Source: Prevotella sp. | GTDB lineage: Bacteria > Bacteroidota > Bacteroidia > Bacteroidales > Bacteroidaceae | Length of the DNA: 39,303 nucleotides | Assembly (NCBI GenBank): GCA_017615355.1 | Contig: JAGAAJ010000093.1 | Location: 1 to 39,303 of the forward strand | Reading direction: 5' to 3' | Shown here: positions 19,935 to 37,794 of the stretch, in pieces | Position numbering within the stretch: position 1 is the first letter of the stretch | Layout of the letters: every line of letters begins with the position of its first letter | The notes under the pieces: model-generated | What the model saw: only the letters and a program-made list of their open reading frames with translations | What the model was told of the DNA's origin: nothing | Databases searched by the model: none | Program-made: the position numbers and the translations under genes

Positions 19935-19935
19935 C

Positions 19936-20384: not shown

Positions 20385-20666
20385 ATGAAGAAAATAGAAG
20401 AACGTATCGAAGAGCTGGAGACCATGGTCTACCAGTCTAAGAATGTGCTTACATTCAACGAAGCAAGTAAGTTCATTGGTATTAGCAAGAGCTATCTTTA
20501 CAAGCTCACGTCAGCAGGTCTTATCCCCCACTACAAGCCATCGGGCAAGATGATCTTTTTTGAAAAGTCGGCATTAGAGAGGTGGATGCGACAAAATCCC
20601 ATATCAACGATTGAGATGGTTGGAGATATGGCAAATGACTATATCATGAACAATCCCCTTGGATAA
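20385..20666 (+). CDS. Excisionase-like helix-turn-helix protein
   Basis: This 93-residue protein starts with a short helical segment and carries a MerR/excisionase-type winged helix: LTFNEASKFIGISKSYLYKL is the recognition helix-turn-helix, and HYKPSGKMIFFEKSALERWM the wing. Such proteins accompany tyrosine recombinases in Bacteroidetes integrative and mobilizable elements, where they direct excision or regulate the element. The integrase gene follows after 15 bp, so the two form a unit. The start is chosen at ATG 20385 because a -7 element lies just upstream. Confidence 0.8.
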   Translation: MKKIEERIEELETMVYQSKNVLTFNEASKFIGISKSYLYKLTSAGLIPHYKPSGKMIFFEKSALERWMRQNPISTIEMVGDMANDYIMNNPLG

Positions 20667-20681
20667 TAAAAACTGACAACG

Positions 20682-21860: not shown

Positions 21861-21925
21861 TGAAACTAGAACAGAGAAATTACGTGGAGGAGCCGCAGAT
21901 GCGACGAACCTTCCATAGATGATGA

Positions 21926-21951
21926 AGTCCTGGGCATTTCGGCTCAGGACT
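21926..21951 (+). terminator. Hairpin after the integrase gene
   Basis: Arms AGTCCTGGGC (21926-21935) and GCTCAGGACT (21942-21951) pair over 10 bp with one wobble around ATTTCG. There is no T-tract after it. It may be an mRNA 3' stem or part of the element's recombination region; the role is uncertain. Confidence 0.4.
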
Positions 21952-22068
21952 CCACAAAAGCGCATCGGGAAGGTGCTAACTTTTCTACTCTTGGTCGGGT
22001 GCAAAGTTACGCATTTTTCCTGTACTATCCAAATATTCAAAGATAAACTTACCACTGTTACAGAAAAA

Positions 22069-23562
22069 ATGTGTTCAATAAACATTACTGAAGTGCTGGA
22101 ATATGCACAGCGGTTTCGTGGGGCCTTCCCGGAATTGCCCATGGACGGACTTACAGTCGAAGTCAAAGGTATTATCAGGCAGTTAGCAGCTGAGAAACAT
22201 GTCCCGACAAATTATGTCCTAGGAGCCGTATTAACTTCATTCGGGTGTGTCTTGGGCCGTAAGGTCGTCATAAGGGACGGTGCCTACTGGAACTATCCTA
22301 ACTTGTATTCATGTCAGGTGGGTTATGCCGGAAGCGGAAAGACTCCTTCTGTCCAGCATGTGTTGAAGCCCATCAAGGAGTTTGACGCGAAGGAAAAGAA
22401 GGAATACGTGAGGGAATTGCGCAGGGCGAAGGCAGACGGAAGTGAACAGCCTCCATTCAACTGTATCATTGTGTCGAACATTACGACGGAAAAGCTGTTC
22501 CGTATTCTCGACAAGAAGCAGAATGACCGGTTCAACACTGGCCTGCTCCTGCATTCCGGTGAATTGCTCAGCCACTTCGGCAACCTTGACCGTTACAACA
22601 GTGGCAATTCACGTCCCTTTTATCTCGATATGTACAGTTGCCAGGATATCAGTGTTGACAGAATGTACGATGATGAGGGTGTCCTCATTGAAAAGCCGTT
22701 TCTCAGCATCCTGGGTGACATTCAGCCAAGGGAGCTGAGGAGGATGTTTCCCGAGAACGACAGCAGCGGCTTCTTTTCACGCTGGTGTTTTTTCCTATCC
22801 AATGGGAAGTCGGAGCGTGTGCAAGAGAACGCCGTCTATATGAATCATTGGTGTGACACTATAGAAAGAGCAATAGAGATGCCTTCCATGGAACTGACAT
22901 TCTCAACAGAGGTTCTCCCCCTGTTGGAAAGCAACGATCAGGAACGCGAGATGCTTTGCGACTATCTGGCAGAATCCAACTCAGAGCTGGCAGAGTATAT
23001 TATCAAGCAGAACTATACGGTGCGAAGGATAGCGGGCATCGTGCACTCGTTGAACTCGATAGTAAAAGGATATGTTCCAAACCCTGAAATAGGAAAGGAT
23101 GTCTATGAGTATGCAGAGAATCTCGTCTCTTTCTTCATACGTGCAGCAGCTGTCGTTCAGCAAATGCGATCCGTAAGTAGTGTTGACAAACTGACAAGCA
23201 AGGCTCTGATACAAAAGGTGAACGAGAAACACCCCATCAAGAATATCTCGCAGTTTGCCGAATCGATAGGAGTGAGCAAGCAGTACGTCTCATCATGCAT
23301 CCTACGCAAGGACACGACGAGGTCGGAAAAGCACGAGCGTATGCTCGAGGATGCTTATTACAAGTGGGCTGAATACATCGTGAAGAACCATCAGACCTTA
23401 TTCTATTCGGTTGGCCGTTTGCCCACCATGGAGGAGGTTGAAAGCTGGCTGGTGTATGATGATGAAGTCATCAAGGCAACGCTGAAGAAGATGGAAGTCC
23501 ACCATCCTTCTGGGTATACCATCCTGTTCTCGCAGTTTGTGTCACAAAAACCTAAGTTGTAA
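22069..23562 (+). CDS. DUF3987-type P-loop ATPase of a mobile element
   Basis: This 497-residue protein has the Walker A sequence GYAGSGKT at residues 85-92, followed by a long region rich in charged residues, with ILGDIQPRELRRMF as a candidate Walker B/sensor region. The layout resembles DUF3987 proteins, which are found next to integrases and mobilization genes in Bacteroidetes elements and are thought to be replication-associated. Towards the end, ISQFAESIGVSKQYVSSCI looks like a helix-turn-helix. The open frame extends to 21919, but the ATG at 22069 starts just before the conserved part and is preferred. The direct function is unknown. Confidence 0.7.
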   Translation: MCSINITEVLEYAQRFRGAFPELPMDGLTVEVKGIIRQLAAEKHVPTNYVLGAVLTSFGCVLGRKVVIRDGAYWNYPNLYSCQVGYAGSGKTPSVQHVLKPIKEFDAKEKKEYVRELRRAKADGSEQPPFNCIIVSNITTEKLFRILDKKQNDRFNTGLLLHSGELLSHFGNLDRYNSGNSRPFYLDMYSCQDISVDRMYDDEGVLIEKPFLSILGDIQPRELRRMFPENDSSGFFSRWCFFLSNGKSERVQENAVYMNHWCDTIERAIEMPSMELTFSTEVLPLLESNDQEREMLCDYLAESNSELAEYIIKQNYTVRRIAGIVHSLNSIVKGYVPNPEIGKDVYEYAENLVSFFIRAAAVVQQMRSVSSVDKLTSKALIQKVNEKHPIKNISQFAESIGVSKQYVSSCILRKDTTRSEKHERMLEDAYYKWAEYIVKNHQTLFYSVGRLPTMEEVESWLVYDDEVIKATLKKMEVHHPSGYTILFSQFVSQKPKL

Positions 23563-23732
23563 TTGACAAGTTGACGCTCAAATCTCGGAAAGCGCCAATC
23601 TACAAAGGCGTTTTCCGAGATTTGTTTGTCAACCAAGCGCAAATAAAGGAAAACGGGTTTAGTTGACACCCGAAACCTGCTTTCCCCCTTTATATGAAGG
23701 TATTTCCACAAATTCCCATGTCAACTTGTCAA
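23563..23732. repeat. Nested inverted repeats between convergent mobile-element genes
   Basis: Perfect 13-bp inverted repeats TTGACAAGTTGAC (23563-23575) and GTCAACTTGTCAA (23720-23732) bracket the whole gap between the DUF3987-type gene and the winged-helix gene. Inside is an 18-bp stem with one G-U wobble (23579-23596 with 23607-23624, 10-nt loop). TTGAC-type cores recur, as GTCAAC near 23628 and GTTGAC near 23663. The inner stem could be a bidirectional terminator. The outer arms and repeated cores are more like binding sites. Confidence 0.75.
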
Positions 23733-23735
23733 CTA

Positions 23736-24188
23736 TTACACAGAAGTTTTGTTTTCTGGTGAAACAGGCTTGACCATCCTCTCAGGCTTTACGACAGGCC
23801 TGACTGCAGGGTCAATGGTGAAGAAGCGGTTCTTGACCGTACCCTGGCCTGTAAACCATACCGAGAGGCACTTCAGGGTGTGAACGGTGGTACGGTTCGA
23901 AGCCTTGGAGCTGAGGATGTCCATCTGGTTGAACTCCCAAATGATGCGGGTGGCCGTCTTACGGTCACAACCCCATGTCTCAGCCAGTTCAACTTTGGAG
24001 GCCATGAACTGGCCAGTATACAGGTATACCGAGAAGTTTTTCCTTTTCTCCTTTCTCGGATCCTTCGCGGCCATGCGCAGGAAAGTGACGAAACACTTCA
24101 TCCTGCTTATTCCCTGGCTCTCGTCAGCCAGATAGTCTATTTGTGCATCGTTGAGGGTGATGCTGTACCTTACATTGGTATATTCCAT
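23736..24188 (-). CDS. Hypothetical winged-helix-like protein of the mobile element
   Basis: This 150-residue protein is not a family I can name. The middle contains KVELAETWGCDRKTATRIIW, with the spacing of a helix-turn-helix, followed by residues that could form a wing (NQMDILSSKASNRTTVHTL). The tail is Pro- and Val-rich and looks disordered. It lies 77 bp after the relaxase gene on the same strand, so it is probably co-transcribed with it and may regulate replication or transfer of the element. The start ATG (24186-24188) has no competing upstream start. Confidence 0.6.
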   Translation of the reverse strand: MEYTNVRYSITLNDAQIDYLADESQGISRMKCFVTFLRMAAKDPRKEKRKNFSVYLYTGQFMASKVELAETWGCDRKTATRIIWEFNQMDILSSKASNRTTVHTLKCLSVWFTGQGTVKNRFFTIDPAVRPVVKPERMVKPVSPENKTSV

Positions 24189-24265
24189 ATTTCTATAGTT
24201 ATTGAAGTAAATAAGGAGGCGGGCATGTCGTGCCCCACCTGTAATTCATTATCACACGTAAGATT

Positions 24266-26173
24266 TTATCTCCTGTACCCACGCTTCCGTTCCTGGCGCG
24301 GTTCCTCACCGTCATCCGGCTCCAACATGTTCCTTGCCATGAGCAGGCAGCGCTTGCCGAATGTCAGGCTGTCCTCGTCTTTCTTGCGACCCCATCCTGA
24401 TTCAGGTGAGGAACCGCCTCCGCCTGAGGAGTCCATAATCGTCGTGGCGGCATCCATGTAGCCGAAGAACAGGCAGACTGCTGCAGCTGCGACATCATTG
24501 GCACAGTCGGCGATTCCGACACCCTGCTTTCCAAGCTGCACGACGCCATCTTCTGCTGCCAACTGCAGCACCTCGCCTTTCATGGAGAGGGAAAGGGGGC
24601 GATAGGCACTGGCGAAAGAAATCAGGTCCATGCCGCAGCCAATTCGTTCCTTTGCCGTCTTGCCCGTTGAGAGCGGCTTTCTGATGATATCCTTCTCTGC
24701 ACCCGTGAGCCAGTCGCGGTTGTCGTCCCTCTCGCAGAGGGTCTTGATGGCCTCCCACATGCCGTTCCACATCGTGCCCATCACGCGTAGAGCCTTCTCT
24801 TTCTCTTCCCTGTCTATAGCGTGCCATACTTTCTCTTCCTCCAAGCTACGCTCAGTCTGGCTCAGCTTTTCTTTGGTGCTGCCGAGTTTCTGGCTGGCTT
24901 CCCAGTATTTCCGATACCGCTGGCCGACCGATTCTGCTGTTGGTTCCATCTGGGGTTGCTTCATCCCGGCAGCGGTGTACATATCCCTGACGAATCTCCT
25001 CTTTCCTTCCTTTATACCACGTTCTTCTGACACCATCGCCTCGGCAGTCCTTTCCTCAAGTGCCGCTTCCAGTTCCCTGATTCTCGATTCAAGTCCGGGC
25101 ACGCGTTCTGCTATCGGCTTGAGGTGCTCAATGGTGGCCCGTAGCTGTCGGTCGGTTTCCTGAAGCTGTCTGATGGTTTTCTTCTGTTCGGCATTCAGGC
25201 GGTATTCGCCAAACCAGCGGTTTTCCACCTTTTCCAAGTCAGACTGCAGCTCGTTCATCTCAGCCAGTTTGCCGTTCAGTTCCTCTGTCGCATGGTCAAG
25301 TTTCGACTGCTTGCCGGCAATCTTCTCGTCTATCTCGGACAGCTCCTTGTCTTTCTTGTTCTTCTCGGTATAACCCTCGATGAGGTCAGCCTCTATGCTC
25401 TTCCGCTCTCTCGTCAGATTGTCAATCATGGTCTGCAGGCTCTTTACCTTCTTCACGGAGTTGGCAAGCTCCAAGGAGATGCGCTGGCTCTCCATGACCA
25501 TCTTGTAGGTGTCGGAATCGAGGTACTTCCGCTTCGAGGGAGTTCCGCGCTCCATGTCGAGTGCCTTGGCCAATTCGTCCTCCATTGTCCGCATCACCTT
25601 ACGGTCGAGGTTGATGCAGCGTGCCTCGTCGTGGTCGAACCAGTCGAAGAGCACATGGGCGTGGTAGTTGGGCTTCCAGTATTCATAGTTGCCGAAAGCA
25701 TTGAGTCGTTTCCACTCCTTGCCGTCGTTGCGCTCATACATCTCTTCGCATTGTCCCTGTTTCTCATCGAGTTCTGCCCAGTGGCCTTCGTCCATGTGAA
25801 TGTAGATGCCCACGGGGCGGATGCCGTAGCTTTGGTGACACCAGTCGGCCCAGGCCTTCACCTGCTCTATCGTAGTGTCCTCCTTGATGACCACCACGGC
25901 CTCCTTCACCGGCTCTGCGTTCTTGGGCAAGGTCTTGTGCATCTTGTACTCGCCGTACTTGCCCTTGACGGTTCTCTCCTTGGCTGCGTACTCACGCTCG
26001 GCCTGCTTCTGCATCTGGTAGACCGATTTCTTGTCCTCCACCTCCCAGATCCACTTGGTTCTGTCCTCCGGCTGCAGTTCGGGCCGGGGATGTTCAAGGT
26101 GCTTCTCCCGGCGGTTGTGCCGCTCGGCGTTCACGGCCGCCGCCTTGATGTGCTTTGAAGTTTTCTTTCCCAT
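24266..26173 (-). CDS. Mobilization relaxase, MobV-like with split active-site motifs
   Basis: This 635-residue protein has an N-terminal relaxase domain (about 1-215). HMDEG at residues 126-130 and YHAH at 170-173 in KPNYHAHVLFDW correspond to the HxDE and HxH metal-binding parts of MobV/Pre-type relaxases. In MobM of pMV158 these sit together (HMDESTPHMH), while here about 40 residues separate them. A long coiled coil follows (about 225-430), then a C-terminal region with a Gly/Ser-rich stretch. Such enzymes nick DNA at oriT to start conjugative mobilization by a helper element. The start at 26173 lies 10 bp below a -7-like element. Confidence 0.8.
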   Translation of the reverse strand: MGKKTSKHIKAAAVNAERHNRREKHLEHPRPELQPEDRTKWIWEVEDKKSVYQMQKQAEREYAAKERTVKGKYGEYKMHKTLPKNAEPVKEAVVVIKEDTTIEQVKAWADWCHQSYGIRPVGIYIHMDEGHWAELDEKQGQCEEMYERNDGKEWKRLNAFGNYEYWKPNYHAHVLFDWFDHDEARCINLDRKVMRTMEDELAKALDMERGTPSKRKYLDSDTYKMVMESQRISLELANSVKKVKSLQTMIDNLTRERKSIEADLIEGYTEKNKKDKELSEIDEKIAGKQSKLDHATEELNGKLAEMNELQSDLEKVENRWFGEYRLNAEQKKTIRQLQETDRQLRATIEHLKPIAERVPGLESRIRELEAALEERTAEAMVSEERGIKEGKRRFVRDMYTAAGMKQPQMEPTAESVGQRYRKYWEASQKLGSTKEKLSQTERSLEEEKVWHAIDREEKEKALRVMGTMWNGMWEAIKTLCERDDNRDWLTGAEKDIIRKPLSTGKTAKERIGCGMDLISFASAYRPLSLSMKGEVLQLAAEDGVVQLGKQGVGIADCANDVAAAAVCLFFGYMDAATTIMDSSGGGGSSPESGWGRKKDEDSLTFGKRCLLMARNMLEPDDGEEPRQERKRGYRR

Positions 26174-26182
26174 AGTTGTAAA

Positions 26183-26190
26183 CAAATCTA
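26183..26190 (-). promoter_or_regulatory. Promoter -7 element of the relaxase gene
   Basis: On the minus strand TAGATTTG matches TAnnTTTG and lies 9 bp before the relaxase ATG at 26173. This would give an almost leaderless mRNA, so the call is tentative. Confidence 0.4.
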
Positions 26191-26248
26191 AGTTAAAGTC
26201 AGGTGAGACAACTTGTGTCGAACTGACGGCTTTATGACGTGCTTGCAC

Positions 26249-26740
26249 TTGTCGGGTGCAGGAGCCTCCTGTCGCACGGGGTTGACAGAATTTCCCTTGG
26301 GGAATATTCGCAACCCTTAGTGTGCTATTTCCAGATAGATGCTATCTGGTCATTGGCGGCAAGCCGCAGTAGGGATGTCTCTTTCCGGCTGCGAAATTAA
26401 AGGATACTTTTTCAGGTGGGAAATCCGGGAAAGACAAACTCTTGATTTAACAGTTTGATGACCAGTTCGGATGATAAAGATGTTAACATCACGTTTAAAA
26501 CATTGGTTTGTAGCGACCGCTACGAATCATTCCCTCAACCGCTGCAATGGACGTTGCAAATATTTGCGTCAAGCGCAGTTAACTCGCCAATAGCCTCCTT
26601 GTCCCAAGGAAGTGACTAATACGCAGTTTCAAATGGTAGGCACTCCTTGTCTTGCCTAGCTGCACATAAAAGAGCAGGTTCAGCGGTCTTTTGTAAGACA
26701 TTGAATTCATTATCAGGAATATCTATTTACAAGTCAATTA
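26249..26740. other. Hairpin-dense non-coding region upstream of the relaxase (oriT or element end candidate)
   Basis: No credible gene is seen on either strand. Several small perfect hairpins occur: TGCAC/GTGCA (about 26244-26260), TTCCC/GGGAA (about 26292-26304), CCAGATAG/CTATCTGG with a 3-nt loop (26331-26349), GCGGC/GCCGC (26356-26367), CCTTG/CAAGG (about 26598-26610) and GTCTT/AAGAC (about 26687-26700). Relaxase genes usually have their nick site (oriT) just upstream, among inverted repeats, so this is the likely place. The right end of the mobile element may also be here. Neither was pinned down. Confidence 0.45.
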
Positions 26741-26770
26741 ATGTTTAGTAACAACTTTTTTACTAAACAT
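26741..26770. repeat. 11-bp inverted repeat next to the ATPase promoter
   Basis: ATGTTTAGTAA (26741-26751) and its exact complement (26760-26770) are separated by 8 bp. The right arm touches the -33 TTTG of the ATPase promoter, so this is a plausible operator for a dimeric regulator. Confidence 0.65.
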
Positions 26771-26801
26771 TTTGTTACTTTGTTTTTTTTTTGTATCTTT
26801 G
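26771..26801 (+). promoter_or_regulatory. Promoter of the AAA+ ATPase gene
   Basis: TTTG (26771-26774), a 19-bp spacer and TATCTTTG (26794-26801) form a complete Bacteroidetes promoter. It overlaps an open-frame extension starting at 26791, so the real start must be the later ATG at 26827. Confidence 0.85.
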
Positions 26802-26826
26802 TGCCGAATTTCTAAAAACTATAGAC

Positions 26827-27957
26827 ATGGAAGAGAATCCTTTTGTATTTGGTAAAGCTGTTGAGGGCAGTTATTTTACGAATAGGACCAAGGACACAGA
26901 GCATCTGGAGGCCAATCTGACACACGGCATTAATACCATCCTCATTTCTCCGCGTCGATGGGGAAAGACATCGCTCGTGAAGAAAGTCATGGCCAATATC
27001 GTTAGACCGGACATCAAAATCATATATATTGATGTATTTTCATGTAAGTCTGAGTATGATTTCTATAAGGTGTTCGCATCTACCATTATCCAGCAGACGT
27101 CTTCCAAAATTGAGGAATGGATAACTACTGCCAAGGAGTTCCTTTCCAGAGTTATAACTAAAGTGGCATTCAGTCCTGACTCAATACAAGAGTATTCCCT
27201 GTCTTTTGAGTTTCCTGTCAAGGATGATGCAGAGGATATACTGCAGCTGCCAGAGAGGATTGCCCAAAAGAAGGGTATTCACATTGTCCTATGTCTCGAT
27301 GAATTTCAGCAAGTTGCCGAGTTCCAGGACTCAATGACGTTCCAGAAAAAACTTCGCTCAGTATGGCAACACCAGCAAAAAGTTTCATATTGTTTGTTTG
27401 GTAGCAAGCGTCATCTGATGACTGAGCTGTTCAGCGATTCCAGCAATCCATTCTACAAGTTTGGCGACATGATGTTCCTGAAGAAGATACCGACAGAGGA
27501 ATGGATACCTTTTATCTGTCATAAGTTCCAAGAAACATGCAAGGTCATTACCGAAAAGCAGGCAGAGCGCATCTGCAAGGTAACAGAGGATTTGTCATCC
27601 TATGTACAGCACCTCTCTTGGATTGTCTGGTATAAGGCAAAGTCAGTAGTTACCTATGAAATGGTAGAGGAGTCCATCGAAGAGTTGCTGGAGCAGAACA
27701 AGGTTTTCTTCCAAAGAGAAGTTGAAGGTCTTACAGAACTACAGCTGAATCTTCTGAAAGCGATTGCAAATGGCGTGGATACTGGATTCACCAAGAAAGA
27801 GGTCATCAAGAAATACCATCTTGAAAGCTCTGCCAACGTCCAGGGCATCAAGAAGTCTTTACTAAAGAAAGACCTGATTGATATTGATGGTTCTGTAATA
27901 ACCTATAACGACCCACTCTTCAAGTTGTGGATAAAAAAGAACATCCCTAACATATAG
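26827..27957 (+). CDS. AAA+ / archaeal-type ATPase of unknown role
   Basis: This 376-residue P-loop protein resembles the ATPase_2 family, numerous in Bacteroidales and archaea. Walker A is SPRRWGKTSL (41-50) and Walker B is IVLCLDEFQQ with Asp158-Glu159. A C-terminal winged-helix-like region (about 300-370) contains FTKKEVIKKYHLESSANVQG. The N-terminus ENPFVFGKAVEGSYFTNR is the usual opening of this family. It has its own promoter with an inverted repeat. It lies between the mobile element and the fructan PUL; membership of the element is possible but not shown. The cellular role of these ATPases is unknown. Confidence 0.8.
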   Translation: MEENPFVFGKAVEGSYFTNRTKDTEHLEANLTHGINTILISPRRWGKTSLVKKVMANIVRPDIKIIYIDVFSCKSEYDFYKVFASTIIQQTSSKIEEWITTAKEFLSRVITKVAFSPDSIQEYSLSFEFPVKDDAEDILQLPERIAQKKGIHIVLCLDEFQQVAEFQDSMTFQKKLRSVWQHQQKVSYCLFGSKRHLMTELFSDSSNPFYKFGDMMFLKKIPTEEWIPFICHKFQETCKVITEKQAERICKVTEDLSSYVQHLSWIVWYKAKSVVTYEMVEESIEELLEQNKVFFQREVEGLTELQLNLLKAIANGVDTGFTKKEVIKKYHLESSANVQGIKKSLLKKDLIDIDGSVITYNDPLFKLWIKKNIPNI

Positions 27958-28004: not shown

Positions 28005-29585
28005 ATGCGAAAGATTATATTATTCATCATTGTAGTTGCAGCTATGCTTACCTCATGTTCCGGAAGCAAAGTAAAATACCGTATCGGTGTGTCGCAGTGC
28101 TCCGTTGATATCTGGCGTGACAAGCAGAATGCCGAGCTGAAGATGGGAGCCTATTTCCATGACAACGTAGAACTGAAGTTTGCTGCTGCCTATGATAGCG
28201 ACGAGCGGCAGGTGCAGCAGATTGACAGTCTGGTAAATGATGGCATCGACTTGCTGATTGTGGCACCGAATCAGGTGCAGACCATCTCGCCGGCCATCGA
28301 CCGCGCCTACGATAAGGGTATCCCTGTCATTGTGTTTGAGAGGAAGACCAACTCGCAGAAATATACAGCCTTCATCAGTGCCGACAACTATGAGATGGGC
28401 CACGTGATGGGCGAATACATCGTTTCGCGCCTTGGTGGCAAGGGCTCGGTATTGGAAATAAAGGGATTGGAAGGCTCGTCACCCGCTATAGAGCGCCATA
28501 ACGGTTTCATGGACGCCATCAAGGATGCACCTGACATCGAGGTGGTGGCCTCACTACAAGGCGACTGGACGGAGCCGACGGCCTATAAGGTCACCCAGCA
28601 GTGGCTCGCTGATCATAAAGATGTATCCATAGATCTGGTGTTCGGCGCTAATGACCGTACGGCAATGGGTGCCCGCAAGGCTCTTTTGGAAAGCCCACAG
28701 CTAAAGGCTAATAGCCAGAATCTACTTTATTGCGGCATCGACGGTTTGCCAGGTGAAAACGGCGGCATACAATTGGTGCGCGATTCGTTGCTAGACGCTT
28801 CGTATATCTATCCAACTCACGGTGACCAGATCATCGACTTAGCCATCCGCATACTCGATGGCCAACCCTATGACAAGGAGACGATGATGATGTCGGCTCT
28901 CGTCACCCGCGACAATGCCAAGGTGCTGCTGATGGAGAGCGAGGAAATCATGCGGCAAGCCAGCCAGCTGGACTTATTGCACGAGAAGGCCGACAACTAC
29001 CTGCACAAGCTCGACACGCAGCGTGTCATCAACTGGCTGGCTATCGGTATCATCGTGTTATTGGTCGTGGTATTCGTACTATTCTACCTCTATCACCTCC
29101 GCAAGATTGCCCTGCAGCGTGAACGCGTGGTGAATACCTTGTGGAATATGAAGCCAGAAGACCTTCCTGTTCCAACAGAAAGTCCTGAGTCAATAAAGAA
29201 TTCTGAGCCTACAAAGAACAGCGACACAGCAGAACCAACAGATACGCCCGAAGAGGATGAGCCTGCCGCTGTGTCACTGTTCATCACCTGTTTCAAAGAG
29301 GTGGTCGAGGCAAGGCTCGAAGACAGCGATGTGAGTGTGGAAGATCTTGCTGCTGACATGAACCTCAGTCGCGTACAGTTGTATCGTAAAGTGAAGGCCA
29401 TCTCAGGCTCGTCGCCTGTCGAGCTGCTACGCACCGCCCGCCTGAACCGGGCCTACCAGCTTCTGCTTACCACCGATAAGAGCGTATCTGAGGTGGCTTA
29501 CGCCGTCGGTTTCACCGCTCCCTCTTACTTTACAAAGTGCTTTAAGGAGGAGTACGGAATGGTGCCTGGCGACGTGAGGAAATAG
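28005..29585 (+). CDS. Transmembrane sugar-sensing AraC-family regulator lacking kinase and receiver domains
   Basis: This 526-residue protein begins with a signal sequence ending in a lipobox-like LTSC (Cys18). Residues about 25-320 form an RbsB/LacI-type periplasmic sugar-binding domain (GVSQCSVDIWRDKQNAELK, then LIVAPNQVQTISPAID). One membrane helix spans about 342-364. A roughly 57-residue Pro/Glu/Ser/Thr-rich linker leads to an AraC DNA-binding domain (428-524) with LAADMNLSRVQLYRKVKAI and SEVAYAVGFTAPSYFTKCF. The sensor and DNA-binding ends resemble hybrid two-component regulators such as the fructose sensor BT1754, but the histidine kinase and receiver are absent with no frameshift. 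It lies directly upstream of the fructan susC and probably controls it. The start at 28005 is chosen because it gives the signal sequence. Confidence 0.88.
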   Translation: MRKIILFIIVVAAMLTSCSGSKVKYRIGVSQCSVDIWRDKQNAELKMGAYFHDNVELKFAAAYDSDERQVQQIDSLVNDGIDLLIVAPNQVQTISPAIDRAYDKGIPVIVFERKTNSQKYTAFISADNYEMGHVMGEYIVSRLGGKGSVLEIKGLEGSSPAIERHNGFMDAIKDAPDIEVVASLQGDWTEPTAYKVTQQWLADHKDVSIDLVFGANDRTAMGARKALLESPQLKANSQNLLYCGIDGLPGENGGIQLVRDSLLDASYIYPTHGDQIIDLAIRILDGQPYDKETMMMSALVTRDNAKVLLMESEEIMRQASQLDLLHEKADNYLHKLDTQRVINWLAIGIIVLLVVVFVLFYLYHLRKIALQRERVVNTLWNMKPEDLPVPTESPESIKNSEPTKNSDTAEPTDTPEEDEPAAVSLFITCFKEVVEARLEDSDVSVEDLAADMNLSRVQLYRKVKAISGSSPVELLRTARLNRAYQLLLTTDKSVSEVAYAVGFTAPSYFTKCFKEEYGMVPGDVRK

Positions 29586-29612: not shown

Positions 29613-29671
29613 ATCGTTCATTCCATCGCAAAAATGTTACATTGCAACATTATTTGCACGGGATGAACGAT
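29613..29671 (+). promoter_or_regulatory. Candidate PUL operator upstream of susC
   Basis: ATCGTTCATT at 29613 and AAATGTTACA at 29632 recur with the same spacing upstream of the orphan secreted protein at 37817. The arm ATCGTTCAT (29613-29621) is repeated in inverse at 29663-29671, and a degenerate inverse half-site (TTGCAACAT) lies at 29642. The first base is exactly 88 bp upstream of the -7 element at 29701. It is the natural binding site for the AraC-type regulator encoded just upstream. Confidence 0.7.
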
Positions 29672-29700: not shown

Positions 29701-29709
29701 TACTTTTGC
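29701..29709 (+). promoter_or_regulatory. Promoter -7 element of the PUL operon
   Basis: TACTTTTGC fits TAnnTTTG, 55 bp before the susC ATG at 29756. There is no TTTG at -33, as expected for an activator-dependent promoter. The same nine bases form the -7 element at 37905. Confidence 0.75.
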
Positions 29710-29755: not shown

Positions 29756-32700
29756 ATGGAAAGACTAAGGAGATTTCTACTGAGCGCGTTGCTCACTTTT
29801 GCAAGTACATTATTGTACGCGCAAAGTGAGATAACAGGAACGGTGGTCGATGAGACCGGTGAGCCAGTTATCGGTGCCACTGTCATGGAGAAAGGTACCA
29901 GCAACGGAACTGTTACCGACTTCGACGGCAACTTCAAACTGAAGGTTGCTGCCGGAACGATGCTTGTTGTGACTTACATCGGCTACGATCCGGTGGAAAT
30001 GGCAGCTGCCTCAGGCATGAAAGTGCAGATGAAAGAGGACCAGTTGCAGCTGAACGAGGTGGTGGTGACGGGTTACACCACGCAGCGCAAGGCTGACCTG
30101 ACAGGTGCCATCTCAACGGTGAGTCCTTCGGATCTGGCAAAGCAGAACGAGAACAACCCCATCAAGGCTATGCAGGGCCGCGTGCCGGGCATGAACATCC
30201 AGGCCGACGGTAACCCATCAGGTGCTGCCAGCGTCCGTATTCGTGGTGTCGGTACACTGAACGACAATGACCCTCTCTACATTATCGACGGTGTGCCTAC
30301 GAAGGCCGGCATGCACGAGCTGAACGGCAATGACATCGAGTCGATCCAGGTGCTGAAGGATGCTGCCTCGGCCAGTATCTATGGATCGCGCGCTGCCAAT
30401 GGTGTCATCATCATCACTACTAAGAAGGGCAAGGATGGTACCGTGAAAGTGAACTTCGACGCCAGCTTGGCTGCCTCACTCTATACGAACAAGATTGAGA
30501 CGATGAACGCTTCGGAGTGGGGGCGTGCCTACTGGCAAGCCTCGGTGAATGACGGGCTGAACCCCAACAACAACAATTTGGGCTACAACTTCGACTGGGG
30601 CTACGACAGCAAAGGCAATCCTGTGTTGAACAAGCTGACGATGAATATGTTTCTCGATGAGAATGCCTCTGTGCGCACGGGTGATACCGATTGGTTTGAC
30701 GAGATTACCCGCACGGGCATCGTGCAGCAGTACAACCTCTCGGTGAGCAATGGTTCTGAAAAAGGCCACTCGTTCTTCTCAGTGGGCTACTACGACAATA
30801 AGGGTACCATTAAGGAGAGTCAGTTCAACCGCTTGTCGGCCCGTGCCAACAGCGAGTATAAGCTGTTCGACGGTTTGGTGACCATCGGCGAGAACTTCAC
30901 GATGAACCGCACACAGGGTACTGACGCTCCTGGCGGCATTCTGGAGAATGCCTTGGAGTTCAATCCCAATTTCCCCATTTATGCTGAGAACGGTGAGTAT
31001 GCACAGGCCCTTGGCGCTTATTCTGAGCGTGAGAACCCGCTGAGCCTGCTCTATAACAATAAGGATAACCAGTACACCCAGTGGCGCTCATTCGGCGATG
31101 TGCACCTGAGCATCACCCCGTTCAAGGACTTCATGATCCGCACTACACTAGGTATGGACTATAGTCAGAAGCAGCAGCGCTTCTTCACCTACCCCATTGC
31201 CAATGGTAAGGTGATGCGCACAGAGACGGCTGCCGAGAGCAAGCAGGAGCACTGGATGCGCTGGATGTGGAATGCCATTGCCACTTACAACCTAGAGGTT
31301 GGCCTTCATCGTGGCGATGCCATGATTGGTATGGAGGTTAACCGTCAGGACTATAATTGGAACAGTGCCAAGCGTTATGAAATGAGTATTCTCAATACAG
31401 ACTATATGTGGCCGTCAGCAGGAAGTGGCCGTCAGTTGGCAGAAGGTTCTGGCGACGGTTTCTCGCTGGTCTCATTCTTTGGAAAAGTAAACTATACCTA
31501 CGCCGAAAAGTATCTGGCCTCGCTGACCATGCGTCGTGACGGTTCGAGCCGCTTCGGTAAGAATAATCAGTATGGTACATTCCCTTCAGCAAGTGCCGGT
31601 TGGAGAATCAGTGAGGAAAAGTTCATGGAAGGCCTCAACTGGCTGGACAACATGAAGTTGCGCTACTCTTGGGGACAGACTGGTAACCAGGAAATCTCGA
31701 ACACTGCCCGCTATACGCTCTACAAGGCTGTGGTGACCACTGGCCTCTGGGGAAGCGGTCAGGCAGGTACCTCCTACGATATCGCAGGCAGCAATGGCGG
31801 CTATGCCCTGAACAATGGCTATGTGCGTACACAGCGTGGCAACGAGGATATCAAGTGGGAGACAACCACCCAGCATAACATTGGTATCGACTTCGCCATG
31901 CTGCACAATGAGATCTACGGCAGTTTCGACTGGTTCCACAAGCTCACTACCGACATCCTGCTGCCTATGGACGGTATTGCCGCCATGGGTGAGGGTGCCT
32001 CGCAGTGGATTAATGCCGGTGAGATGAAGAACATCGGTTGGGAGCTGTCGGTGGGCTATCGTCACAAGCTGGCCAACGGCTTCTCGTGGGACATCAACGG
32101 CAACGTCAGTCGGTACTCTAACGAGATCACCAAATTGCCCGAGACGGTGGCTGCCAAGGGCACCTTCGGTGGCAATGGCGTGAAGAGCGTCATCGGTCAT
32201 CCTATGGGTGCACAGGTGGGCTACATCGCCGATGGCATTTTCAAGAGTCAGGAGGAGATTGACAACCACGCCGTGCAGGAAGGTGCCGGACTGGGACGCA
32301 TCCGCTACTTGGACCTGAACGGTGACGGACTGATTAGCGAAGCCGACCAGGACTGGATCTACGATCCGACACCCGCATTCACTTGGGGCCTGAACGTCTA
32401 CTTAGAATACAAGGATTTCGATTTCACCATGTTCTGGCAGGGTGTGCAGGGTGTGGATGTTGACTGCCGAGGCTATAAGTCGCAGACTGACTTCTGGGCC
32501 AACAACAACATCAATGTGCCTTATCTGAACAAGGGTGTCCGCGTTCTCGACGCATGGAGCGCAGCCAATCCTGGCAGCGACATCCCAGCACTGACCACCA
32601 CCGACTCGAACAATGAGGGCCGCGTATCGTCCTACTACATCGAAAACGGTTCTTTTGTCAAGTTGCGTACCATCCAGTTGGGCTACAATGTGCCTAAGAC

Positions 32701-32863
32701 CTTCTCCGACAAGCTGCGGATGGACCGCATCCGCCTCTATGCCTCTGCCCAAAACCTGTTGACCATCAAGAGCAGCAAGTTCTCTGGTGCCGACCCCGAG
32801 AATCCTGGATTCGGCTATCCTATTCCTCTGAATATAACATTCGGTCTGAACGTAAGCTTCTGA
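29756..32863 (+). CDS. SusC-like TonB-dependent outer-membrane transporter
   Basis: This 1035-residue protein imports oligosaccharides through the outer membrane. A signal peptide (MERLRRFLLSALLTFASTLLYA) is followed by a carboxypeptidase-regulatory-like domain (about 24-95: SEITGTVVDETGEPVIGATV), a TonB box region LNEVVVTGY, the plug (AISTVSPSDLAK onwards, with IRGVGTLNDNDPLYIIDGVP) and a 22-strand barrel ending in FGLNVSF with the terminal Phe of outer-membrane proteins. It pairs with the SusD-like protein encoded 38 bp downstream. The ATG at 29756 gives the signal peptide; the upstream in-frame start at 29642 lies in the operator. Levan is the likely cargo from the neighbours, which is an inference. 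Confidence 0.95.
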   Translation: MERLRRFLLSALLTFASTLLYAQSEITGTVVDETGEPVIGATVMEKGTSNGTVTDFDGNFKLKVAAGTMLVVTYIGYDPVEMAAASGMKVQMKEDQLQLNEVVVTGYTTQRKADLTGAISTVSPSDLAKQNENNPIKAMQGRVPGMNIQADGNPSGAASVRIRGVGTLNDNDPLYIIDGVPTKAGMHELNGNDIESIQVLKDAASASIYGSRAANGVIIITTKKGKDGTVKVNFDASLAASLYTNKIETMNASEWGRAYWQASVNDGLNPNNNNLGYNFDWGYDSKGNPVLNKLTMNMFLDENASVRTGDTDWFDEITRTGIVQQYNLSVSNGSEKGHSFFSVGYYDNKGTIKESQFNRLSARANSEYKLFDGLVTIGENFTMNRTQGTDAPGGILENALEFNPNFPIYAENGEYAQALGAYSERENPLSLLYNNKDNQYTQWRSFGDVHLSITPFKDFMIRTTLGMDYSQKQQRFFTYPIANGKVMRTETAAESKQEHWMRWMWNAIATYNLEVGLHRGDAMIGMEVNRQDYNWNSAKRYEMSILNTDYMWPSAGSGRQLAEGSGDGFSLVSFFGKVNYTYAEKYLASLTMRRDGSSRFGKNNQYGTFPSASAGWRISEEKFMEGLNWLDNMKLRYSWGQTGNQEISNTARYTLYKAVVTTGLWGSGQAGTSYDIAGSNGGYALNNGYVRTQRGNEDIKWETTTQHNIGIDFAMLHNEIYGSFDWFHKLTTDILLPMDGIAAMGEGASQWINAGEMKNIGWELSVGYRHKLANGFSWDINGNVSRYSNEITKLPETVAAKGTFGGNGVKSVIGHPMGAQVGYIADGIFKSQEEIDNHAVQEGAGLGRIRYLDLNGDGLISEADQDWIYDPTPAFTWGLNVYLEYKDFDFTMFWQGVQGVDVDCRGYKSQTDFWANNNINVPYLNKGVRVLDAWSAANPGSDIPALTTTDSNNEGRVSSYYIENGSFVKLRTIQLGYNVPKTFSDKLRMDRIRLYASAQNLLTIKSSKFSGADPENPGFGYPIPLNITFGLNVSF

Positions 32864-32901: not shown

Positions 32902-34650
32902 ATGAAAACTAAGATATTCAATATAGTATGTGCTGGCCTGATAGGCTTTAGCTTCACGTCTTGCTCTGATTTCCTGGAAGAGCAGGTGCCTCAGGCTACA
33001 CTGACTCAGGACGAAGTCAAGGATGCCAAGTACATTGACAATGTTATTATCTCTGCATACGCAGGACTGGTGTCCATCGAAGATATGAATGCCTCGTTCT
33101 CGCTTTGGAACTACGATACCCGCTCTGACGATGCCTACGTGGGTGGTGCCGACGCCAGCGATGGCGGTCCGTTCCACAATCTGGAAAAGGAAGTGGGTAT
33201 CAACACCACCGACTGGCCTTTCGCCTCAATCTGGGGAAAGATGTATAACTACCTGTCGCGTGTGTCCCTCTCTTTGGACATCCTCGCCACAGCCGACCAG
33301 AACGATGCTAAGATTCAGCAGCGCACGGCCGAGATGAAGTTCCTGCGTGCCTATGGACACTTCCAGCTGAAGCGTCTATTCAAGAAGATTCCTTTTGTCA
33401 ACAAGCCCAACATGCAGGAGGAAGATTACAATAACCTCTCAAATACCGAGTACACCAACGACGAGGGCTGGCAGCAAATTATCAACGACCTGGAGGATGC
33501 ATATAACGTACTGCCTGTGACGCAGAAAGAAAAAGGCCGTCCCACCAAGGCTGCCGCCGCTGCCTTCTTAGCCAAGGTATATCTCTACAAGGCATATCGT
33601 CAGGATGATGCCAATAGCAACCAAGTGACTGGCATCAACACTGAAGACCTGCAGAAGGTGGTCGAATACACCAATCCTGCCATCTATACGGCAGCCGGCT
33701 ACGGACTGGAAAACGATCTGCACAACTTGTTCCGTCCTGAGGAGCAGTACGAGAATGGTAAAGAATGTCTCTGGGCTATCCAGTATTCTAGGAACGATGG
33801 CACGGAATATGGCAACGTGAACTTCTCAAATCGTCTGATTGTGCCCTGTATTCCGAAGGTACACGACTCAGGCTGCGATTTCTACAAGCCCTCACACAGC
33901 TTGGTCAATGCCTACCGCACCAATAGCGACGGTCTGCCCATGCTCGACAACTTTGCCTCTGTTGACTATACCGTTGGCAGCAACGAGACCGTTGACCCCC
34001 GCCTCTTTGTGACGGTTGGCGTGCCTGGCACTCCCTATATGTTCAACACTGCTTACATGATGAGTGAGAGCAACACTTGGAGCCGCTCTGGTGGTGACTA
34101 TGGCTACTTCGTATCGCTGAAGCAGAACGTTGACCCCGATCTCACCAATATTTACCTCTTCAACTGCGACAACCAGTGGGCATCATCGATGAACCGCGTG
34201 GTGCTGCGCTATGCCGATGTGCTGCTGATGCGTGCCGAGGCACAGGCTCAGCTAAATAACACCACCGAAGCTATCACACTGGTCAATCAGATTCGTAATC
34301 GTGCTGCCGGCATGACCACAAACAGTGTTGTAGCAGGCTATCCCAACAAGTATGGCGTACACTATGCCGTGGGCAAGTATAATGGTTCCTACAGCAAGGA
34401 ACAAACCATGAAGATCATCAAGATGGAACGTCGTCTGGAGCTGGCTATGGAGTGCGAGCGTTTCTTCGACCTCGTACGCTGGGGCGATGCTGCCACCGTT
34501 CTCAATAAGTTCTATACGGATGAGAGTGAGACGATGAACTTCCTGAAAGGATCTTCGTTCACGGCTAACAAGAACGAGTACCTGCCCGTTCCATTCGAGC
34601 AGATAGCAGCTTCTAACGGACACTATACGCAAAACTGCGGACAATGGTAA
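32902..34650 (+). CDS. SusD-like surface glycan-binding lipoprotein
   Basis: This 582-residue lipoprotein forms the lid of the SusC transporter and binds the glycan at the cell surface. The signal ends at a lipobox with Cys21 (FTSC), followed by SDFLEE. The SusD/RagB fold is shown by FLRAYGHFQLKRLFKKIPFV, KGRPTKAAAAAFLAKVYLY and the C-terminal MKIIKMERRLELAMECERFFDLVRWG. Its position directly after susC and its length are typical. Confidence 0.94.
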   Translation: MKTKIFNIVCAGLIGFSFTSCSDFLEEQVPQATLTQDEVKDAKYIDNVIISAYAGLVSIEDMNASFSLWNYDTRSDDAYVGGADASDGGPFHNLEKEVGINTTDWPFASIWGKMYNYLSRVSLSLDILATADQNDAKIQQRTAEMKFLRAYGHFQLKRLFKKIPFVNKPNMQEEDYNNLSNTEYTNDEGWQQIINDLEDAYNVLPVTQKEKGRPTKAAAAAFLAKVYLYKAYRQDDANSNQVTGINTEDLQKVVEYTNPAIYTAAGYGLENDLHNLFRPEEQYENGKECLWAIQYSRNDGTEYGNVNFSNRLIVPCIPKVHDSGCDFYKPSHSLVNAYRTNSDGLPMLDNFASVDYTVGSNETVDPRLFVTVGVPGTPYMFNTAYMMSESNTWSRSGGDYGYFVSLKQNVDPDLTNIYLFNCDNQWASSMNRVVLRYADVLLMRAEAQAQLNNTTEAITLVNQIRNRAAGMTTNSVVAGYPNKYGVHYAVGKYNGSYSKEQTMKIIKMERRLELAMECERFFDLVRWGDAATVLNKFYTDESETMNFLKGSSFTANKNEYLPVPFEQIAASNGHYTQNCGQW

Positions 34651-34689: not shown

Positions 34690-36087
34690 ATGAAGACAAA
34701 GATATTAAACATTATTGGTTTCATCTGCATTGTCTGCGGTTTCGCAGCTTGCTCTGACGATGACCACACGGGCAGCATCGATGTCAGTGGAGAATGTCTG
34801 GTACAGGAACTCGTGCTTAACGGACAGTATCCTGCCACTATCAATACAGAGAAACGTCTCATTAAGGTGAAGGTGCCTGTTGACTTTACTGCAAAGGACA
34901 ATATGGAGATTACCAGCCTCACCGTTTCTGCTGGTGCAAAGAGTAACTTCAAGGTGGGCGACCATATCAATCTTGTGGCCGATAAGACCCTGCACATCAC
35001 AAATGGTGATCTTGTCATGGACTACCAGGTAGCAGTACGCAACGACGAGGCCGTTATGACGCTCTTCCTCTTAGAGGGCGTAAAGGGTGCCATCAACCAA
35101 GCTGATAAGACCGTGACCGTCTCTGTGACTGCCAACAGCGGTGTGGATCTTGCCAACGCCACCTTCGAAGTGGAGTGCAGCGAGGATGCCATATGTAGTC
35201 CAGCCAGTGGCACGAAGGGCAATTTTACAGAGCCTTTCCAGATTACCTTGACTGACAACACCGCCTCGAACACTTATACCGTTTATGCCGTCATGATTGA
35301 CAAGCCCAAGGCATTGTTCGTGGGTGAGGCAGAGAATGTGGAAATGCTCAACGACGAGGAGAAGGCTGCCGCCAAATGGCTCACTGGTAACATCGCCGGT
35401 TCGGCTTATGCATCTTGGAGCGATGTGGCCAATGGCAATGTATCACTCGATGAATGTAAGTTCATCTTCTTCCATCGCCATTGCTCGTCTTATGGTAACT
35501 ACAACGGCTTTGCTGAGGCTGAGAAGGCTGCTATGTCGGCATTGGCCAAGATGAAGGAGTGCTGGCAGCGTGGCGTGGGCTTCGTATTAGGACGTTCTGC
35601 TGTCAACTTCGCTATTGCCCTGGGGGCTATGCCTCAGGATGCCTATCCCAACAATGTGTGGGGCGGCGGTGGCGGTGAGGGCTCCGACCTGATGGGCGAT
35701 GATCCCTGGCACTTCTATGCCTACGACATCAACCACCCGCTGTGGCAGGGCCTGAAGACCTATCCCGGTGCTGCTGAGAATGCCGTCTATACGCTGGATA
35801 AGGACTATACCATCTGCAACACCACGTCACAGTTCGGATTCTGGGGCGAATACGAGGGTCGCGAGGGTGCCGTTGAGGCGAAGACCGGCGGGCGTGCCCT
35901 GGGTGGCGACAACAGCGTATCATCGTGGGAGCTGAAGGCTGCCAACGGAGAATATGGTAAGGGCGGTGTCATCTGCTTCGGTTCAGGACTCTTCGACTGG
36001 AACTCACCTACGTCGTATGTATCGAACTACCACGACAACATGGGAACCATCATGCTGAATGCCTACCACTATCTGACAGGAGAATAG
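34690..36087 (+). CDS. DUF4960-type surface glycan-binding lipoprotein (BT1761-like)
   Basis: This 465-residue lipoprotein has a lipobox ending in Cys21 (FAAC) followed by the acidic SDDDH, a pattern that sends lipoproteins to the Bacteroidetes surface. Two Ig-like repeats follow (about 35-110, 115-205; CLVQELVLNGQYPATI and MTLFLLEGVKGAINQADKTV are the repeat starts). The C-terminal domain (about 210-465) resembles DUF4960, which in the B. thetaiotaomicron levan locus belongs to the levan-binding protein BT1761. It contains many aromatic residues (WGGGGGEGSDLMGDDPWHFY). The order SusC, SusD, DUF4960, GH32 matches that locus. The family call is from memory. Confidence 0.78.
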   Translation: MKTKILNIIGFICIVCGFAACSDDDHTGSIDVSGECLVQELVLNGQYPATINTEKRLIKVKVPVDFTAKDNMEITSLTVSAGAKSNFKVGDHINLVADKTLHITNGDLVMDYQVAVRNDEAVMTLFLLEGVKGAINQADKTVTVSVTANSGVDLANATFEVECSEDAICSPASGTKGNFTEPFQITLTDNTASNTYTVYAVMIDKPKALFVGEAENVEMLNDEEKAAAKWLTGNIAGSAYASWSDVANGNVSLDECKFIFFHRHCSSYGNYNGFAEAEKAAMSALAKMKECWQRGVGFVLGRSAVNFAIALGAMPQDAYPNNVWGGGGGEGSDLMGDDPWHFYAYDINHPLWQGLKTYPGAAENAVYTLDKDYTICNTTSQFGFWGEYEGREGAVEAKTGGRALGGDNSVSSWELKAANGEYGKGGVICFGSGLFDWNSPTSYVSNYHDNMGTIMLNAYHYLTGE

Positions 36088-36162: not shown

Positions 36163-37794
36163 ATGAAAAAGCAAATCATATCATTAGTAGTTTACATGGT
36201 AACTGCTCTCCCCCTCGGGGGAGTTGGAGGGGGGCTTCTCTGCTCCTGCTCTGACGACGAGGTAATTGGCGATCCCGCCAAGGACTGGGCAGGAACCACC
36301 ACGTTCTTCACCCCTACCGACGAGACAGGTTTTTCTACCTACTATACGCCTGCCATCGGACGTTGTGGCGACCCCATGCCGTTCTACGACCAGAAGGCTG
36401 GCGACTTCAAGGTACTCTATCTGCAGGAGTATACCAACAACATGACCTATCGTTTCCACCCTATCTGGGGAGTGTCGACCACCGATGGCTGCAACTACCA
36501 GTCATTAGGCGAAATACTGCCCATGGGAGCCAACGACTACCAGCAGGACGCTGCTCTGGGTACGGGATGCTGCTACTACAACGAGAAGGACGGCCTTTAT
36601 TACATCTATTATACAGGCCATAACGGCAACAGCAAGTATCGCGAGGCAATCATGCGTGCCACTTCGCCTGACTTCAAAACCTGGACACGCGACGAGCTGT
36701 GGCAGCTCAATGGCCCTGACTACGGCTATTCGGCTACCGACTTCCGCGACCCGCAGATCTTTGTGGCCGAGGACGGACAGTACCACATGGTTATCACTAC
36801 CCGTCCCGTCAATGGCGGCGACCCCAAGTTTGCTGAGTTCAAGTCTACTGAAATGAAAACGTGGGAACATGTAGGTCAGTTCAATATGGTGTGGGACCGT
36901 GTACTCGAATGTCCTGACATCTTCAAGATGGGCGACTATTGGTACTTGGTCTACAGCGAAAGCTATAAGGCCTCATGGAGCCGTAAGGTGAAGTACATGA
37001 TGGCTACGTCGTGGGAGGCACTGAAAGCCTGCTTCAATGATCCGGGTGCAAACTGGCCAAAGGACGGCAAGGAGGGTATTCTCGACAGCCGCGGTTTCTA
37101 TGCCGGCAAGACCGCCTCAAACGGTACCGACCGCTACATCTGGGGCTGGTGTCCCTTCCGCTCGGGTGGCGACATCCACGAAATGAACACCAACGTGGGT
37201 GCTGGTGATGGTAACGAGCCCAACTGGTCTGGTGCGCTGGTGTGCCACAAGATTATCCAACACGCTGATGGAACACTCACTGTGGGCGAGGTTCCTGCTA
37301 TGGCAAACAAGTACAACCAGGCTCAAAGCCTTAACGTAATGGCCAGCAGCGGCTACAGTAACGGTAACCTCTCTGGTGACGATGCCTACGTACTCTACAA
37401 TCGCCTGGGTACTCATAACCACATCTCATTGACCATTAAGACCTCGAACAACTGGGACAAGTTCGGCATTTCGCTGGTTCGAGGAACAGACTCAAAGAAA
37501 TACTACACGATGGTTTTTAATCCTGAGAACGAAAACTGGCGCAAGGTGAACTTTGAACAGGAAGGTGAGGAAGGCAAGGGCTTCGTCGAGGGTATCGACA
37601 GCTACGGCTTCTCCCGTCCAGACGATAACGTATACAAGATAGATATCTATACCGACAACTCAGTCATGGTGATGTACGTTAACGACAATGTCTGCTACAC
37701 CAATCGCATTTATGGCATCCAGAAGAATTGCTGGAGTATTAACAACTACGGCGGCTCGGTTACCGTCTCAGACGTAAAGGTCAGCCAGTATTGA
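36163..37794 (+). CDS. GH32-type fructan hydrolase, surface lipoprotein (endolevanase candidate)
   Basis: This 543-residue protein has a lipoprotein signal with Cys29 (LCSC) followed by SDDE, consistent with surface export. The five-bladed propeller of clan GH-J (about 45-375) carries three acidic residues at the expected places: Asp70 in CGDPMPFYD (nucleophile), Asp196 in FRDP (stabiliser) and Glu249 in LECPD (acid/base). A beta-sandwich follows (about 385-543). The nucleophile motif differs from the usual NDPNG. By position it corresponds to the endolevanase BT1760 of the B. thetaiotaomicron levan PUL. Residues 15-27 of the signal peptide are encoded by a G-rich palindromic repeat. Confidence 0.8.
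   Translation: MKKQIISLVVYMVTALPLGGVGGGLLCSCSDDEVIGDPAKDWAGTTTFFTPTDETGFSTYYTPAIGRCGDPMPFYDQKAGDFKVLYLQEYTNNMTYRFHPIWGVSTTDGCNYQSLGEILPMGANDYQQDAALGTGCCYYNEKDGLYYIYYTGHNGNSKYREAIMRATSPDFKTWTRDELWQLNGPDYGYSATDFRDPQIFVAEDGQYHMVITTRPVNGGDPKFAEFKSTEMKTWEHVGQFNMVWDRVLECPDIFKMGDYWYLVYSESYKASWSRKVKYMMATSWEALKACFNDPGANWPKDGKEGILDSRGFYAGKTASNGTDRYIWGWCPFRSGGDIHEMNTNVGAGDGNEPNWSGALVCHKIIQHADGTLTVGEVPAMANKYNQAQSLNVMASSGYSNGNLSGDDAYVLYNRLGTHNHISLTIKTSNNWDKFGISLVRGTDSKKYYTMVFNPENENWRKVNFEQEGEEGKGFVEGIDSYGFSRPDDNVYKIDIYTDNSVMVMYVNDNVCYTNRIYGIQKNCWSINNYGGSVTVSDVKVSQY
36205..36238. repeat. G/C-rich palindromic repeat inserted in the GH32 signal-peptide coding region
   Basis: CTCCCCCTCGGGGGAG (36208-36223) is a palindrome, followed by TTGGAGGGGGGC. 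The whole element is an inverted copy of the one at 36088-36115. It is read in frame as ALPLGGVGGGLL inside an otherwise ordinary signal peptide. Confidence 0.8.

Follow-up and report, generated by a model that had tools for sequence, protein, structure and literature searches.

The gene at positions 28005 to 29585 of a 39,303-nucleotide stretch of Prevotella sp. DNA (GCA_017615355.1, contig JAGAAJ010000093.1; hereafter the window) probably specifies a one-component regulator that spans the membrane and activates the fructan PUL beside it. In this reading, which we hold at a probability of about 70%, the protein goes back to a hybrid two-component system (HTCS) of the BT1754 type that lost its HisKA, HATPase, and receiver domains through internal deletion.

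Domain architecture of the regulator

The regulator frame begins with ATG and encodes 526 amino acids with no internal stops (it and the features that follow, except the operator, lie on the plus strand). A signal peptide (28005..28058) ends in the lipobox LTSC (Cys18). It precedes an RbsB-like periplasmic sensor domain at approximately residues 25 to 320 (28077..28964), which is matched by Pfam Peripla_BP_4 at residues 51 to 287 (3.8e-46). The closest solved chain is 2x7x_A, "SENSOR PROTEIN" (E = 5.5e-80, residues 24 to 342), which we take to be the fructose-binding sensor domain of BT1754. Hydropathy marks a single hydrophobic segment between the sensor and AraC domains, a transmembrane helix at residues 341 to 361 (29025..29087; Kyte-Doolittle mean, 2.84). 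The cytoplasmic linker that comes next (29088..29285) carries the juxtamembrane motif RERVVNTLWN (29118-29147) and then an acidic tail rich in Ser, Thr, and Pro; the 63 linker residues after the helix include 13 D/E and 7 K/R and occupy the position held by HisKA, HATPase, and REC in complete relatives. The AraC-type DNA-binding domain (29286..29582) closes the protein, with HTH_18 at residues 448 to 526 (1.9e-21). HisKA, HATPase_c, and Response_reg have no match in the protein, all of these Pfam searches being at E up to 0.001.

Pfam, the 2x7x_A match, and hydropathy thus agree with the first-pass annotation, which had described an RbsB-like domain joined by one helix and an acidic linker to an AraC domain, with the relay domains absent. 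It had also held that the frame is intact, and this too stands: the same unbroken architecture recurs in many loci, among them isolates (the complete chromosome of Prevotella communis E15-14, and P. aff. ruminicola Tc2-24), and dN/dS is low, so we reject a broken gene or an assembly join. The lipobox, listed there as an oddity, is instead a family trait, its Cys being kept almost throughout the three classes of relatives defined below (81/83 K0, 32/32 KR, and 34/35 FULL, by alignment column); it is no peculiarity of this regulator.

Reduced and complete relatives

The window protein is matched in at least 283 of 398 genomes of the genus (E of 1e-30 or better, any architecture), and its sensor in 135 of 399 genomes of the family (1e-40). 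A scan of genome contigs yielded 102 relatives, and 79 distinct loci were kept. The 266 sensor ORFs in fetched loci carry AraC alone (159), HisKA-REC-AraC (41), or HisKA-HATPase-REC-AraC (47), the others having no AraC domain (2), none of the four domains (4), or a short sensor match (13); loci were picked partly by frame length, so these class counts are not frequencies. The tree input of 248 ORFs (18 left out, L041 taken back in) was thinned at 85% to 150, comprising 83 proteins with sensor and AraC domains and no relay domains (K0), 32 that retain HisKA and receiver and lack only HATPase (KR), and 35 complete HTCSs (FULL).

Pfam, applied to 57 of the 83 thinned K0 proteins, found Peripla_BP_4 and HTH_18 in 57/57 and HisKA, HATPase_c, or Response_reg in 0/57 (E, 0.001). 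A HATPase model of our own, built from 35 long ORFs that turned out to include two KR proteins, matched 35/35 FULL, 0/32 KR, and 1/83 K0 proteins, the last at 1.6 bits (E = 3.5). Pfam likewise found HisKA and Response_reg with no HATPase_c in the four KR proteins given to it (L060, L061, L188, L252). Because a regular expression for the HisKA motif missed 11/32 KR and 12/35 FULL proteins, an alignment column was used instead. The KR proteins (L060, L061, L063, L162-L190, and others) are HATPase-less HTCSs with conserved phospho-His and phospho-Asp residues. KR and K0 regulators lie side by side or clustered in L183 (5038-7218 and 8576-10177), L190, contig C7 of genome G059, and contig C8 of genome G338.

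The K0 linkers fall into four types and four singletons (L248, L253, L255, L256). Type A comprises 57 proteins, the window's included (52 by one pattern and 5 more by a second), type B 9 (EREAFxxVV), type C 7 (a remnant of the start of HisKA), and type D 6 (a heptad coiled coil), which with the singletons gives 83.

The adjacent PUL and a predicted operator

Downstream of the regulator lie genes for a susC-like TonB-dependent transporter (29756..32863; TIGR04056, E = 9.6e-273), a susD-like lipoprotein (32902..34650; Pfam), a DUF4960 protein (34690..36087; Pfam, E = 1.4e-85) that we presume to be a surface fructan-binding protein, and a GH32 enzyme with a BT1760-like C-terminal domain (36163..37794; Pfam), a gene set that identifies a fructan PUL. 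Among the 25 thinned K0 loci whose downstream sequence extends for 7.5 kb or more (window included), homologues of the window genes follow on the same strand within 8.2 kb for susC in 24, susD in 23, and the DUF4960 and GH32 genes in 10 each; the K0 loci without those DUF4960 and GH32 homologues may serve other substrates. Queried with the window SusC, a susC gene lies on the same strand within 1.5 kb downstream in 59/65 K0, 19/28 KR, and 3/15 FULL loci, the flanks of the FULL loci being shorter. Kinase-less proteins with Peripla_BP and AraC domains therefore do recur beside susC, a question raised by the first-pass annotation. A possible integrated element occupies positions 19696-27957, just before the PUL: a tRNA-Arg (cct) precedes a tyrosine integrase gene, a DUF3987 gene, frames that Pfam does not recognize, and the gene of an AAA-type ATPase. 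Copies of the tRNA end at least 14 nt long, which could have marked its borders, were not found within the window.

The interval from the regulator stop to susC contains a 59-bp inverted repeat (29613..29671), a predicted operator in which two direct-repeat units lie in opposite orientation (ATCGTTCA, 21 bp, TGTTRCA). It came to light in an alignment of 30 loci (27 K0, 3 KR). Its outer arms occur in such an arrangement once in the window's own genome and 0 times in the reversed control. Downstream, TACTTTTG (29701..29708) resembles TAnnTTTG, which we take to be the Bacteroides -7 box consensus. A matrix was built from 38 units in 19 gap-free rows among 21, leaving out nine rows (three KR and six broken, gapped, or permuted). 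Units of at least 13 bits occur within 700 nt downstream of the regulator in 60/82 K0 regions (training rows included), 17/32 KR, and 7/34 FULL, no KR or FULL row having entered the matrix, and none occur in 560 kb of mononucleotide-shuffled sequence. The 22/82 K0 regions with no operator at this cutoff include those of two near relatives of the window protein (L008, L023) and of 11/13 type C and D proteins.

The two boxes of a unit are offset by 21 bp in 113/119 pairs (87/89 K0, 22/23 KR, and 4/7 FULL), close to the published spacing of HTCS sites, which excerpts of PMC3878776 describe as direct repeats whose tandem sites have a mean separation of 21 bp. A box pair common to K0, KR, and some FULL loci suggests that loss of the relay left the predicted DNA output in place, at least in the main lineages; types C and D are mostly without the site.

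The inverted repeat could instead be a transcription terminator, or serve as both, a reading we consider unlikely while granting it some weight. As plus-strand RNA it folds into a strong hairpin (z = -6.0) followed by ATATTTTT. In L027, L028, and L051 the arms of the predicted operator are permuted, with the inner and outer half-sites of one arm swapped, and the permuted form of L028 folds equally well (z = -6.0) ahead of TTTTTT; we accordingly dropped permuted arms as an argument against termination. A terminator would leave unexplained why K0, KR, and some FULL loci preserve the 21-bp box pair, even where the hairpin is weak (L162, a KR locus; z = -1.6) or only one unit is present. A terminator scan calls none, which is weak evidence since the scan wants short loops. 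Part of the conservation of the site may still be due to termination.

Proposed signaling without a receiver

In HTCSs the receiver locks the DNA-binding domain until phosphorylated; its S/CHIP motif touches an Asp and a Lys of that domain and blocks DNA, and when the contact is broken the domain binds DNA without phosphate, according to excerpts of the work of Gao, Wu, and Stock (PMC11253607). The S/CHIP motif is kept in 30/32 KR and 32/35 FULL proteins. At the contact-Asp position, which a pattern located from the published 39-residue spacing, an acid (D/E) is present in 34/35 FULL and 29/32 KR proteins, 6/27 of the window clade, and 28/56 other K0 proteins. These counts fit release of the window clade from a contact that vanished with the receiver; the other K0 lineages are equivocal. 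The contact Lys (K462 in the window protein) is kept in at least 90% of 57 aligned K0 proteins, as would be usual in a recognition helix.

A regulator that has lost its receiver, and the lock with it, would have to be controlled through the geometry of its dimer. We infer that the clamshell sensor would be dimeric and anchored to the inner membrane by the N-terminal lipid and the C-terminal transmembrane helix. Closure of the sensor on a sugar in the periplasm would then change the distance or rotation of the two transmembrane helices, so that the two AraC domains could occupy boxes 21 bp apart and, independently of phosphate, activate susC. The two opposed box pairs suggest two dimers per predicted operator.

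Over 57 pairs of K0 genes, dN/dS has a median of 0.089 and a maximum of 0.207, rough values because most pairs have a dS that approaches or exceeds 1 and the pairs are not independent, some loci being one gene fetched twice. By these estimates the reduced form is under purifying selection. Eight sensor residues are invariant in the 57 aligned K0 proteins (W37, R38, R113, R164, W188, N216, D217, D246), and several of them, we presume from RbsB, line the pocket. Candidate ligands are fructose and close fructan products. Position 112, which aligns with an Asp of 2x7x, is Asp in 35/35 FULL proteins, D in 16 and E in 16 KR, and E in 56 and D in 27 K0; the window protein has Glu112 in place of the Asp of FULL proteins, which leaves fructose itself uncertain as the ligand.

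It is rather improbable that the protein is instead a constitutive activator, or one controlled by its own expression level, with AraC always bound and the sensor idle or merely tuning stability. Loss of the contact acid in most of the window clade would favor such an activator, given that an HTCS DNA-binding domain freed of its receiver contact needs no phosphate to bind. An idle sensor, however, would be expected to decay, and this one retains its eight invariant residues and looks selected, with dN/dS of 0.065 to 0.097 in 13 pairs that include the window protein (8 distinct; rough, with high dS). We therefore prefer a ligand-gated one-component activator.

The KR class and kinases in trans

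Phospho-His, phospho-Asp, and receiver Lys are conserved in all 32 KR proteins. The residue after the phospho-His is E in 21, Q in 9, and R in 2 KR proteins, compared with E in 25 and D in 10 FULL proteins. An acid next to the phospho-His assists autophosphorylation, and its loss in 11/32 KR proteins suggests that these no longer act as kinases. Retention of both phosphorylation sites in 32/32 proteins without HATPase points to a donor in trans for KR.

A kinase in trans might also serve K0 proteins, for example through mixed dimers with a full HTCS, so that phosphotransfer would still be involved; KR and K0 genes do share a locus in L183 and L190. We regard this as quite improbable, because K0 proteins lack any phosphorylatable domain, the stretches flanking 83 K0 genes contain no separate HATPase ORF, and no other regulator with the same sensor is present in most of the good genomes inspected. 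In 8 of 10 good genomes, selected for having a K0 gene, that gene (503 to 564 aa) is the sole sensor-AraC gene of its sensor family; the other two (G059, G338) have K0- and KR-length frames, and FULL-length frames are found in 0/10. The window's own genome (89.7% complete) contains five Peripla_BP_4 frames, the window's of 544 aa and the others of 342 to 382 aa. The kinase-receiver fragment elsewhere that the first-pass annotation had weighed against its own proposal was not found, as judged by HATPase ORFs beside the 83 K0 genes and by sensor-AraC genes in those eight genomes. In the stretches covered around the 32 KR genes a separate HATPase ORF occurs near one, in L165 (564 aa, minus strand).

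Descent from an HTCS

Across 295 genomes of the order, 35 of 43 matches outside the window's own genome have frames of at least 815 aa, the other eight measuring 679 to 713 aa (3), 519 to 581 aa (4, one with a stop), and 315 aa (1), all judged by length alone. Since full-length frames prevail elsewhere in the order, K0 and KR appear to be reductions. Distances between K0 and non-K0 proteins are correlated for the sensor and AraC domains (rho = 0.77; 0/200 permutations as high), and the sensor-nearest non-K0 protein is among the ten AraC-nearest for 49/83 K0. The two domains evidently share one history, which argues for internal deletion. The seven type C linkers match a profile of the start of HisKA, six at 14.7 to 20.3 bits and the seventh at 8.3, against a best of 8.0 bits among 1,660 shuffles. 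Fusion of a periplasmic binding protein to a stand-alone AraC gene, with no relay ever deleted, would suit the type A linkers (the window's included), which have no recognizable HisKA remnant, yet we reject it as very improbable given the type C remnants, the prevalence of full-length frames, and the shared domain history, to which the window protein itself conforms, its nearest non-K0 protein being the KR protein L060 by sensor and AraC alike (75% and 75%). Trees, domain history, HisKA remnants, and order-wide frame lengths all support HTCS descent. The initial proposal, that an HTCS at a fructan PUL has lost its kinase, ATPase, and receiver, is supported by the domain scans, trees, and HisKA remnants in one lineage, and by the common ancestry of both end domains and the predicted operator shared with unreduced relatives.

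The number of losses is less direct to count. In a tree of 96 sensors, built after near-duplicates and rows on long branches had been removed, the K0 label has to change 14 times, 9 of these changes being forced by starred branches, and a single K0 clade is rejected (p-AU = 5e-7). Most K0 proteins nevertheless have RERVVNTLWN in common though their sensors fall among KR sensors, and one linker type shared by proteins so scattered probably reflects recombination between paralogues. We therefore rejected a loss count from the sensor tree alone: type A is itself scattered over many branches (21 rows need 15 changes), a pattern more easily explained by recombination than by the motif having arisen many times. 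Counting by linker types instead implies at least four separate origins of K0. Loss of the relay several times in related bacteria suggests that it is dispensable in this sensor family.

Comparison with known systems

With BT1754 (HTCS_Fru) of Bacteroides thetaiotaomicron the regulator shares a homologous sensor, a transmembrane helix, an AraC domain, and a fructan PUL neighborhood; it differs in the Asp-to-Glu change in the sensor and in its position directly upstream of susC. It has the periplasmic ligand-binding sensor and C-terminal AraC-type DNA-binding domain of an HTCS and lacks the HisKA with its phospho-His, the HATPase_c, and the receiver with its phospho-Asp, so that sensor, transmembrane helix, and DNA-binding domain stand in one chain with no relay domain, as in a transmembrane one-component regulator. 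SusR-like proteins of Bacteroidetes are also membrane proteins with a periplasmic sugar sensor and a cytoplasmic DNA-binding domain, and SusR activates sus operons; excerpts of PMC3878776, from whose description we compare it, give its DNA-binding domain as having no significant similarity to known families and its tandem sites as 67 or 77 bp apart, in contrast to the HTH_18 of the regulator.

ToxR, CadC, and TcpP signal across the membrane to DNA in a single protein without phosphotransfer, as the regulator would, and the full-length membrane form of CadC binds DNA (in excerpts of PMC5936718). Their domain order is the reverse, with an N-terminal DNA-binding domain that is a winged helix and not AraC (HTH_18 in the regulator), and they have no sugar-binding sensor. 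SusR is the nearer functional precedent, and ToxR and CadC are analogies only. XylR of Escherichia coli also combines periplasmic-binding-protein-like and AraC domains; it is cytoplasmic, with no signal peptide, lipobox, or transmembrane helix, unlike the regulator, which is anchored by a lipobox signal peptide and a transmembrane helix.

Relay loss in a wider setting

The window's genome holds two further regulators with reduced relays. One, of 840 aa (G000:C127:27548-30070; L283:1049-3571), has a Reg_prop propeller, an AraC domain, and a transmembrane segment recognized by eye, with no HisKA, HATPase, or receiver match in Pfam at E up to 1; it is a kinase loss with a different sensor. Among 60 genomes of the genus it is matched in 8 besides its own (1.3e-82 or better; 817 to 878 aa, by length only). 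The other, a propeller HTCS of 1,287 aa without HATPase (G000:C116:4485-8348; L284:986-4849), has a weak HisKA-like stretch without the His and a receiver Lys at the expected phospho-Asp, both by eye, and is apparently relay-dead.

In the open-licence literature searched, to which most subscription journals do not belong and which was seen in part, we found no HTCS described as lacking its kinase or its HATPase. An inulin PUL of Segatella copri is reported, in excerpts of PMC11784079, to be without a contiguous HTCS gene. PUL annotation that relies on the HTCS signature may label K0 loci as "without regulator."

The usual scheme has two-component systems growing out of one-component ones. The same promoter boxes stand beside K0, KR, and FULL forms in some loci, and we advance tentatively, at slightly less than even odds, the view that the phosphorelay has been dismantled several times in one family by way of an ATPase-less His/Asp state, the KR form, with control at bottom conformational. 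If so, the relay would be an added, removable lock, the evolution from one-component to two-component systems would also run backwards, and KR proteins would either rely on the ATPase of other receptors or have a passive switch in their His-Asp pair. K0 proteins, at about 520 residues, could offer small single-gene sugar sensors for engineering. The FULL, KR, and K0 forms have their sensor family and type of output domain in common and, in the main lineages, a predicted operator as well; they would constitute a natural deletion series in which the contribution of each relay domain can be tested.
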